NCBI GenBank assembly: GCA_002722565.1
Contig: PBMG01000001.1
Location: 124,001-188,000 of the forward strand
Origin: Acidimicrobiaceae bacterium
GTDB lineage: Bacteria; Actinomycetota; Acidimicrobiia; Acidimicrobiales; Poriferisodalaceae
DNA: 64,000 nt
Direction of reading: 5' to 3'
Part shown: one piece after another, positions 14,977 through 18,152 of the stretch
How positions within the stretch are numbered: the stretch's first letter is position 1
How the letters are laid out: each line of letters opens with the position of its first letter
Position numbers and translations under genes: made by a program
The notes under the pieces: model-generated
What the model was told of the DNA's origin: nothing
Databases searched by the model: none
The model's input: the letters and a program-made list of their open reading frames with translations, nothing else

Positions 14977-16233
14977 TCAACCTTTAGCGCGTCCCGCATA
15001 GCCGAACAGTTTGCCCGCTACTTTGCGAATCTGGATCTCCTCAGCGCCCTCTGTTATGCGGTAGCGCCGATGATGTCGGTAGATGTGTTCGAAAGGCATT
15101 TTACGGCCATATCCGATGCCGCCGCAGCTTTGCATTGCACGATCAGCGGCATCGCAACAGAATCGGTTTCCGCGGTAGTTGCACATGGCGACGCGATCCG
15201 TGATCTCCATATGGTCAACGCCTTCATCCATTTCCCAAGCTGTTTTCCAGATCAGTGCCCTAATCATTTCCGCTTCGGTGTATAACTCTGCTAGCGGAAA
15301 TTGGATTGCTTGATTCTGGGAGAGCGGCTTCCCGAAGGTTGTCCTGTTATTCACATAGTCAACTGCAAGATCGATGCAATGAAGTCCAGCGCCGACAGAT
15401 GATGCTGCCTGGCGAATCCGGTTCTCATGGACAAATAATTGAGCTGTTTGGAGACCCCGCCCTTCTTCTCCGAGGATGTCGTCGTTATGCACTCGAACCT
15501 CACTTAGGCGCACGTGAGCGTGGTCCGTTGGCATATTGAAAGTCCACATGAATTCCTCGACACTGAATCCTGGAGAGTCGACCGGAACGATAAAGCAAGT
15601 GATGCCGTGGCCTTCCCCAGGGGAGCCCGATGTCCTCGCAAAGATGTAGTCATGTGTTGCATGGTGCAAACCTGTGTTCCAGTATTTTTCCCCACTGATG
15701 ACCCACTCGTCTCCGTCGCGAACGGCGGTGGTTTCCATCCAGGTTGCATCGGAGCCATGAAGAGGTTCAGTTAAACCAAAACCAATTCGGGCTGTCCCTT
15801 CCAGCATCTTGGGTATCCAATATTCTTGCTGTTGTGCCGATCCGTACTTCTCCATCATCAGAACAGTTGGGAAGTTACCGATGATCGAATTTTCGTTTTG
15901 TAGATCGTTGTGGAGACCTAATCCTCGTCGAGCTAAATGCTCTCGCACGATGGCCATACCGAGGTTTGTACCTTCTTGGCCTCCGAAGCGTTTAGGGAGA
16001 TGCCACCTCAAAAAGCCAGCATCGTCTGCTTCGCGTCGCATCCGACCGAGCAATGCCTCCCATTCAGCGTTTGGTAGACCGTCGCGTTCCCAGTCGGTTC
16101 TGGAATCTTCTCGGCGGTGGTCGAAAAACCTAATGTTGTCATCTTCATTTTCGATTGGCTTGATCACGTCTTCAATAAAACCGTCGAGATCGCCTATTAA
16201 TTTTTGAATGTCAGTGGGAATAACGAAGTCCAT
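14977..16233 (-). CDS. Acyl-CoA dehydrogenase
   Basis: A 418-residue flavoprotein dehydrogenase. FAD- and substrate-binding segments include FGLTEPLHGSDATWMET and EKYWNTGLHHATHDYIFART; the C-terminal part has RTTFGKPLSQNQAIQF, CGGIGYGRKMPFEHIYR and the catalytic glutamate in YRITEGAEEIQIRKVAG. The start is the ATG at 16233 (MDFVIPTD); the longer open frame upstream would run across the start of the divergent selenoprotein gene. The spacing to that gene is only 28 nt, so both promoters are compressed or overlapping. The chain-length class cannot be fixed from sequence. Confidence 0.9.
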   Translation of the reverse strand: MDFVIPTDIQKLIGDLDGFIEDVIKPIENEDDNIRFFDHRREDSRTDWERDGLPNAEWEALLGRMRREADDAGFLRWHLPKRFGGQEGTNLGMAIVREHLARRGLGLHNDLQNENSIIGNFPTVLMMEKYGSAQQQEYWIPKMLEGTARIGFGLTEPLHGSDATWMETTAVRDGDEWVISGEKYWNTGLHHATHDYIFARTSGSPGEGHGITCFIVPVDSPGFSVEEFMWTFNMPTDHAHVRLSEVRVHNDDILGEEGRGLQTAQLFVHENRIRQAASSVGAGLHCIDLAVDYVNNRTTFGKPLSQNQAIQFPLAELYTEAEMIRALIWKTAWEMDEGVDHMEITDRVAMCNYRGNRFCCDAADRAMQSCGGIGYGRKMPFEHIYRHHRRYRITEGAEEIQIRKVAGKLFGYAGRAKG

Positions 16234-16261
16234 ACTGTGCGAACGTATACCGTCGTTGCGT

Positions 16262-16867
16262 ATGGCGCTGCCAATTATCGTCTGGTCCGACTTTCTTTGA
16301 CCTTGGTGCCATCTGGCGCGGGCCCGGGCGGCCCGTTTAAATGAGCGGCAGGACGTCGACATTTCGTGGCTTCCGTACGAACTTCACCCTGAGATTCCTG
16401 CTGGTGGTAGCCCAAATGAGCGAAAGTTTTCGGCATTGCGGCCGATTGCTGATGAGCTCGGCGTAGTCATGAATCCGCCAAGCCGGTTTCAGCCAACTAA
16501 GAAAGCGCACCAAGCAGCTCTGGTTGTGGAACATATCTCGCCCGAAGCTATAGAGACCTATCATGACCGTCTTTTCGCAGCCATATGGGTGGAAGAACGA
16601 GATATCGAAGACCCTGGGTTTTTGTCAACCCTGGCGCGGGACCTCGATGTACCCCCTGAATTAATCGAAAGAGTGGTCACCAATAATGAATTGTGGCCAG
16701 CAGTGGTTTCTTCGATGGAACGTGCGCATGCATGGGGAGCGACTGGAACTCCGAGTTGGGTCATTGATAACAAACTCATGGTGCCGGGCCTGCAGGATGA
16801 CGAGTTTTTTGACCGAGTAATTGAGAAAATGTCGATGGCTAACGGTGATGAAGAGCCATTGAAATGA
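16262..16867 (+). CDS. DsbA/FrnE-like selenoprotein with U-P-W-C active site (in-frame TGA)
   Basis: Read from the ATG at 16262, the frame encodes MALPIIVWSDFL, then TGA (16298-16300), then PWCHLARARAARLNE and on without a stop to 16867. With TGA as selenocysteine the product is 201 residues with a U13-P14-W15-C16 active site. The rest fits the DsbA/FrnE thioredoxin fold: VDISWLPYELHPEIP after the active site, a helical insert, and the cis-proline loop in WGATGTPSWVID. Without the region before the TGA the protein would lack its first strand and redox centre. A hairpin at 16318-16336 is positioned like a SECIS. It would be a cytoplasmic thiol oxidoreductase, as no signal peptide is seen. A nonsense mutation is the alternative, but conservation of everything around it argues against this. 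Confidence 0.88.
16318..16336 (+). promoter_or_regulatory. Putative SECIS hairpin for the DsbA-like selenoprotein
   Basis: Downstream of the TGA at 16298-16300, GGGCC (16320-16324) pairs with GGCCC (16330-16334). The stem is extended by C16319-G16335 and a G16318-U16336 wobble. The loop is CGGGC (16325-16329), with a G at its second position. The loop starts 25 nt after the TGA. Bacterial SECIS elements lie within the coding region just after UGA and bind SelB through such a short apical loop. The same loop form and spacing recur at 25834. Confidence 0.75.
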
Positions 16868-16901: not shown

Positions 16902-18152
16902 ATGGAGCCGACGTATTCCGAAGAAGCAGAGTCCTATCGCGACAAGATACAAAAGTTTATAAGCGAAAACCTTCCTGCTAATTGGCAGGGCATCGGGTCT
17001 TTGACCGGTGACGCTAAAGCAGAATTCGTGGGTGAGTGGCGTCGGATTTTGAGCGATAACGAGTTGTTAGCAACTATGTGGCCCAAAGATTACGGAGGCC
17101 CTGGTTTGTCTGCGAATGAAAACGTCATTATCGCTGAAGAATTCACTAAGGCGGGCCTACCGACGGGCGGTTCCAATGATGGATTCGGTATTGGCATGGT
17201 CGGAAATACATTGATCGAATGGGGTACTGAGGAACAGAAGAAGCATTACTTACCGCGTATCCTTGACGGCGACGATCTTTGGTGTCAGGGATACTCCGAA
17301 CCCGGCGCTGGATCTGACTTGGCAAATCTAGGTTGCAAGGCTGAGTTGGATGGCGACGAATGGGTCCTCAACGGACAGAAGATTTGGACCTCTAGTGGGC
17401 ATTTAGCAAACTGGATCTTTGTGCTGGGCCGCACCGCTCCCGAAGACGCTAAACATCAAGGCATCACTTTTTTTCTTTGCCCAATGGACCAAGCCGGGAT
17501 TGAAGTCCGACCCATTGTGAATATCGCTGGGCACAGCCACTTTAACGAAGTGTTCTTTTCTGATGCTCGAGTTCCAAAAGAAAATGTCATCGGGCAAGTC
17601 AACGGTGGTTGGGCGGTTGCTATGACGCTTCTTGGGTATGAGCGGGGCTTTGGGGCTACAACTACTTATTTTCGTTATCGCTCCGAGTTGGACCGTCTAG
17701 TTGAGATGGCGCAAGCTAAGGGTCGGACCGAAGATCAAAGCATTAGGCAACGCCTGGCATGGTGCCATAGCAAAGTTGAAATAATGCGTTGGTTAGGGCA
17801 ACAAGTTTTGACTTCATTTTTGAACGGAGAAGCACCGGGCCCGAAGAGCTCCATCGGCAAACTGAATTGGAGCGAATATCACAGAACAGTGACTGAACTC
17901 TCACTGGACATCCTCGGCGCGGATGCCATGGTCATGGAGGGTGACACCGCGTATGCGGCTGGGCTAGGCGCTGCCGATGCAGGAACTCCCAATACCACTT
18001 CCGCTTGGATAAATAGTTTTTTGGCGGCACGGTCAGGGACTATTTACGCAGGGACCAGTCAAGTCCAACGAAACATCATCGGAGAACGCGTCTTAGGTTT
18101 ACCAAAAGAGCCGCGAGCGGACGAAGGCCCTTGGAACGAAACCTTGCGTTGA
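16902..18152 (+). CDS. Acyl-CoA dehydrogenase (FadE type)
   Basis: A 416-residue acyl-CoA dehydrogenase. Characteristic segments are WCQGYSEPGAGSDLANL, WVLNGQKIWTSSGHLANW and the C-terminal GTIYAGTSQVQRNIIGERVLGLP. The position that carries the catalytic glutamate in the common YEGT motif is alanine here (YAGT). Some family members place the base on another helix, so activity is not excluded. The segment ERGFGATTTYFRYR matches the FadE-type subunits of actinobacterial steroid side-chain dehydrogenases, some of which form heteromers. The gene follows the selenoprotein by 34 nt and precedes uridine kinase by 1 nt. Confidence 0.88.
   Translation: MEPTYSEEAESYRDKIQKFISENLPANWQGIGSLTGDAKAEFVGEWRRILSDNELLATMWPKDYGGPGLSANENVIIAEEFTKAGLPTGGSNDGFGIGMVGNTLIEWGTEEQKKHYLPRILDGDDLWCQGYSEPGAGSDLANLGCKAELDGDEWVLNGQKIWTSSGHLANWIFVLGRTAPEDAKHQGITFFLCPMDQAGIEVRPIVNIAGHSHFNEVFFSDARVPKENVIGQVNGGWAVAMTLLGYERGFGATTTYFRYRSELDRLVEMAQAKGRTEDQSIRQRLAWCHSKVEIMRWLGQQVLTSFLNGEAPGPKSSIGKLNWSEYHRTVTELSLDILGADAMVMEGDTAYAAGLGAADAGTPNTTSAWINSFLAARSGTIYAGTSQVQRNIIGERVLGLPKEPRADEGPWNETLR

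Follow-up and report, generated by a model that had tools for sequence, protein, structure and literature searches.

A TGA-interrupted gene between two acyl-CoA dehydrogenase genes of marine Acidimicrobiales very probably encodes a DsbA/FrnE-like selenoprotein

Does the TGA that interrupts a thioredoxin-fold reading frame in an uncultured marine actinobacterium end a protein, or does it specify selenocysteine (Sec) at the active site of an enzyme? The frame lies in the window, by which is meant the whole 64,000-nucleotide stretch analysed (Acidimicrobiaceae bacterium, assembly GCA_002722565.1, contig PBMG01000001.1, positions 124,001 to 188,000). It reads MALPIIVWSDFL-TGA-PWCHLARARAARLN... from an ATG at 16262, the next in-frame stop being a second TGA at 16865–16867; features are listed in Table 1. 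An earlier, sequence-only reading had proposed this frame, and its coordinates and sequence proved exact. It had also predicted that standard calling would begin at a TTG and drop the active site, which is what the mechanical open reading frame list for the window does, containing only TTG 16436–16867. The FrnE-like domain it had recognised is there as well: Pfam DSBA (PF01323) spans residues 5–187 (89.6 bits, cut-off 25.6), and the best fold match is Deinococcus FrnE. No NCBIfam model scored above cut-off for this protein or for a second UPWC protein of the genome (weak partial matches only), and in the window an Rfam scan gave no family above gathering score and no tRNA was found. A TGA with 180 or more open codons behind it is nothing unusual in the window (19 cases), so the frame alone proves nothing. 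The evidence for the gene is instead its conservation, from which it is clear that the UPWC gene is real and is missed by standard gene calling, which truncates it at the cost of its active site.

Table 1. Coordinates of the UPWC gene, its neighbours and related selenoprotein genes. Positions are those of the window unless preceded by G000, which denotes the same genome.
Feature	Position	Strand	Basis
Putative UPWC DsbA/FrnE-like selenoprotein gene, 201 residues	16262..16867 (including stop)	+	Frame, Pfam, orthologues, AlphaFold
TGA very probably read as Sec13, first position of UPWC active site	16298..16300	+	Homologue alignment, family conservation
TGC, Cys16, second (presumed resolving) UPWC residue, the product's only cysteine	16307..16309	+	Invariant in orthologues
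SECIS-like hairpin, 6-bp stem 16319-16324/16330-16335, loop CGGGC 16325-16329	16319..16335	+	Pairing, synonymous constraint
Thr163-Pro164, expected cis-proline loop opposite active site	16748..16753	+	Alignments
Acyl-CoA dehydrogenase, divergent neighbour	14977..16233	-	Pfam
GTATAC palindrome, candidate shared promoter element	16245..16250	.	Invariant in 9/9 aligned genomes
Acyl-CoA dehydrogenase, 34 bp downstream, same strand	16902..18152	+	Pfam
SelD, motif GAGUACK, TGA at classical Sec site	G000:C1:65406-66341		
Formate-dehydrogenase-like protein (FdhA-like), motif RTUHAP, TGA at classical Sec site	G000:C1:242545-244410		
Second UPWC DsbA-like putative selenoprotein (L064)	G000:C21:143235-143819	-	TGA at same column

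When 61 related whole genomes were searched, 29 from the window's own family proved to carry the orthologue, each copy with a single in-frame TGA; identities, leaving aside the window itself, ran from 49 to 98%. Wherever a locus was inspected nucleotide by nucleotide, the TGA was always residue 13 and the cysteine always residue 16, and U13-P-W-C16 was invariant across the orthologues. The sequence-only reading had placed the TGA where the first cysteine of a CPWC motif belongs, and this position indeed aligned only with TGA or a cysteine codon: among 68 homologues from named genomes, a set that overlaps with the 61-genome search, 38 had TGA, 30 had TGT or TGC and none had any other codon, and TAA or TAG was seen in 0 of the homologues checked there. 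All three of the nearest homologues without TGA had TGT or TGC in the Sec column. UPWC was thus found at the same locus elsewhere, as had been suggested, and the fear that close relatives would expose the TGA as a lone error is dispelled, since they keep it. A sequencing error at this codon was considered separately and is untenable, 29 separately assembled genomes sharing the TGA. In Nei-Gojobori comparisons of the window with its relatives, dN/dS was well below 1 both ahead of the TGA and beyond it: the 82% relative shows dN 0.09 and dS 1.5 past the codon and no amino-acid change ahead of it. The 12 codons 5′ of the TGA are conserved as protein.

Homologues bearing TGA came from Acidimicrobiia and other Actinomycetota, from Chloroflexota and from one Sedimentibacter, the nearest named relatives being marine acidimicrobial metagenome-assembled genomes, including MedAcidi-G3. 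Those bearing TGT or TGC belong to other genera, and represent the Cys counterpart expected for a selenoprotein family. A tree of 46 homologues needed six changes between Sec and Cys, of which well-supported branches dictate four or more, and the two residues have therefore been exchanged repeatedly. A plasmid search recovered just distant DsbA-family proteins (<60% identity). Five homologues (L124, L127, L129, L130 and L152) have CPFA or CPWA and so lack the second active-site cysteine, which means that single-Cys forms exist in the family too.

The AlphaFold model (28 sequences; pLDDT 95.1) places residue 13 after strand 1 and just before helix 1, with no leader ahead of strand 1. Its best PDB matches were Deinococcus radiodurans FrnE (TM 0.78–0.81), and further structure matches included SCO1869 as well as GST kappa and 2-hydroxychromene-2-carboxylate (HCCA) isomerases (TM 0.71–0.80 for the last two). 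T163 and P164 are invariant among the orthologues, P164 also across the wider alignment, and by analogy with the family the Thr163-Pro164 bond would be expected to have cis geometry. Overall, the apparent stop codon is very probably translated as Sec in the catalytic centre of an enzyme that handles disulfides.

The conserved locus lies among genes for acyl-CoA dehydrogenases, MaoC and enoyl-CoA hydratase. At every UGA orthologue locus inspected, the divergent acyl-CoA dehydrogenase is the gene's neighbour, and the downstream one, which is probably co-transcribed with the UPWC gene, is kept at most of these loci; gene order is conserved in genera g1, g4, g6 and g7, while in genus g5 only the divergent neighbour is retained. 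In two sister genera the Cys orthologues (L063 and L082) likewise have the downstream acyl-CoA dehydrogenase behind them, together with the kinase. The divergent genes are separated by 28 bp (16234–16261), in which GTATAC stands at a similar distance from both starts. The palindrome looks like a single promoter element serving both directions, with nearly leaderless transcripts.

Such surroundings, together with the GST kappa and HCCA isomerase structure matches, would suit a different enzyme: the same selenoprotein, but of GST-kappa or HCCA-isomerase type, whose substrate would be a small molecule or CoA thioester from the acyl-CoA degradation cluster around it. Both GST kappa and HCCA isomerase have a catalytic serine and no CxxC, unlike the window protein with its invariant UxxC and T-P loop, and the top fold match is a disulfide oxidoreductase, FrnE, rather than either of them, making this assignment rather unlikely. 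Similarly doubtful is the broader proposal that, in this family of marine Acidimicrobiales, a Sec redox enzyme is tied to one acyl-CoA dehydrogenase locus with a function dedicated to acyl-CoA metabolism. If true, certain enzymes or CoA-linked thiols would be kept reduced, a function not known for any DsbA/FrnE protein.

The sequence-only reading depended on the presence of Sec machinery, and the genome encodes SelA, SelB, tRNA-Sec (anticodon UCA), a Sec-containing SelD and an FdhA-like protein. The SelD and FdhA-like genes share the window's own contig. The contig carrying selA, selB and tRNA-Sec resembles the window in GC content (0.516–0.518 vs 0.529) and in tetranucleotide composition (r 0.89–0.90, vs 0.50–0.66 for two other genomes). 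SelA was found in 38/38 genomes of the 61-genome set that have a UGA homologue, such a homologue was found in 0/12 genomes without full SelA, and in a phylum sample SelA accompanied the UGA homologue in 19/20 listed genomes (the exception, G416, is 77% complete and SelA was not found in it), although these co-occurrence tests are confounded, and inflated, by the relatedness of the genomes.

The machinery also bears on whether UGA could be reassigned (Trp being one conceivable meaning) or translated as Cys through an atypical tRNA. Decoding as Cys would look alike in the alignments, cysteine being the homologues' aligned residue. However, TGA is the commonest stop in the window and terminates 24/48 large open reading frames, so recoding is local and TGA is not generally reassigned; moreover, tRNA-Sec(UCA), selA, selB and selD are all present, and SelD and the FdhA-like protein have TGA at classical Sec sites, leaving both variants very improbable. 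That the TGA is a true stop, giving a truncated 143-residue protein from the TTG at 16436 (the mechanical caller's output) or a decaying gene, is scarcely credible, because the 12 codons before it are protein-conserved, dN/dS is low on both sides, it is kept over 29 genomes and never swapped for TAA or TAG in the homologues checked, and the truncated form would lack strand 1, the active site and helix 1 of the predicted structure. A reassigned code and a premature stop were accordingly rejected on the grounds of TGA stop usage, machinery and conservation across the TGA.

The published model of the bacterial SECIS (bSECIS) has a loop of 3–9 nt with G in its first two positions and a spacing of 16–37 nt (PMC13188914), and an energy at or below −7.5 was applied here in addition. 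The window hairpin lies within all these limits, its 5-nt loop, with G second, beginning 24 nt after the UGA, at −11.1 kcal/mol. Stem cells were paired in 97% of instances over 23 sequences, compared with 28–48% when the partner strand was slid; G occupied the second loop position in 19/19 orthologues, and in all Sec members of both UPWC groups G was within the first two. Over the 14 codons that follow the TGA (+1 to +14), four-fold degenerate sites varied less than in the rest of the gene (0.36 vs 0.67, permutation p ~0.0002). On the other side, the short hairpin by itself falls short of −7.5 in some orthologues, single-sequence folding found the stability ordinary for the GC content (z −0.61), main-group covariation was weak (144/500 shuffles reached the observed count of cells changed on both sides), and of three GC-rich Cys homologues two can also form a model-like hairpin. 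The bSECIS-like hairpin is therefore regarded as supportive, not diagnostic. The Cys orthologue L082 (G009), from a sister genus, has a perfect CGAGCC-AGGC-GGCTCG hairpin ~30 nt past its Cys codon, which could be a fossil SECIS or could have arisen by chance in GC-rich DNA.

Frame, conservation, machinery, Sec/Cys exchange and fold were computed, and it is from these that we infer Sec incorporation. The product is very probably a cytosolic UPWC oxidoreductase of the DsbA/FrnE family, whose UGA is decoded as Sec by SelB, Sec-tRNA(UCA) and the hairpin. In this scheme SelB, bearing Sec-tRNA(UCA), would decode the UGA at 16298–16300 under the direction of the hairpin 24 nt downstream, TGA elsewhere serving as an ordinary stop. 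Sec13, at the N-terminus of the first helix, would then attack a substrate disulfide (or oxidised thiol), and Cys16 would resolve the mixed selenenylsulfide; by analogy with FrnE, the enzyme may run in the reductase rather than the oxidase direction. The C-terminal CxxxxC of FrnE is absent from the 201-residue product, in which Cys16 is the sole cysteine. Because this second cysteine pair is absent, an outside reductant would be needed to recharge the oxidised enzyme, for which thioredoxin or a low-molecular thiol may serve, and the enzyme may be tied in some way to the neighbouring acyl-CoA dehydrogenases.

The second UPWC protein of the genome (L064) is ~28% identical to the window protein. 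Counterparts with one TGA were found in 26/61 genomes, two of them belonging to other families within the order, and the hairpin of this group has an 8-bp stem with its loop at 20 nt, 95% paired, with one pair changed on both sides. Its neighbours we take to be SPFH/NfeD and DUF2237-like genes.

Literature searches that paired UPWC or FrnE with selenocysteine turned up nothing relevant, those joining MedAcidi with a selenoprotein gave no paper, and the literature searched yielded no description of the acidimicrobial orthologue group, its locus or its gene neighbourhood. The claim that this protein and its context are new stands only in part. DsbA-like UxxC selenoproteins are already a listed family, known from ocean metagenomes since 2005, when nine such sequences (COG2761) were reported from the Sargasso Sea (PMC1088965); the GOS metagenome followed in 2008, with DsbA 1 (63) and DsbA 2 (18) (PMC2398784), and a 2026 catalogue lists ‘DsbA-like protein form 1’ (PMC13188914). 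What appears undescribed is the acidimicrobial orthologue group, its conserved locus, flanked by two acyl-CoA dehydrogenase genes, and the second UPWC paralogue. UxxC DsbA-like selenoproteins, known mostly from ocean fragments, can now be assigned to defined uncultured marine actinobacteria and, with machinery, locus and same-place Cys counterparts known, the rationale for Sec rather than Cys becomes testable on matched orthologues.

The window protein resembles the DsbA-like UxxC family (PF01323/COG2761) in its PF01323 domain, Sec in the first active-site position, marine origin, Cys homologues and bSECIS-like hairpin, a comparison made by description, the published members being metagenome fragments or accession-only. 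The catalogue's ‘DsbA-like protein form 2’ (motif DxxUP, PF01323, alias crotonase/enoyl-CoA hydratase family; PMC13188914) was likewise compared by description only, and the window protein, with D10-F-L-U13-P14, also fits its D-x-x-U-P motif. GST kappa and HCCA isomerase share the fold, but there the chemistry is that of serine and glutathione, and here of UxxC. With D. radiodurans FrnE (PDB 5co3, 5cnw and 5xwh) the window protein has in common a cytosolic DsbA fold and an active site of the CP(W/F)C type, UPWC standing for FrnE's CPWC; it differs in having Sec for the first cysteine, in being shorter, and in its want of the C-terminal CxxxxC, which D. radiodurans FrnE uses as a regenerating motif and which S. 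roseofulvus FrnE also lacks (PMC8945050).
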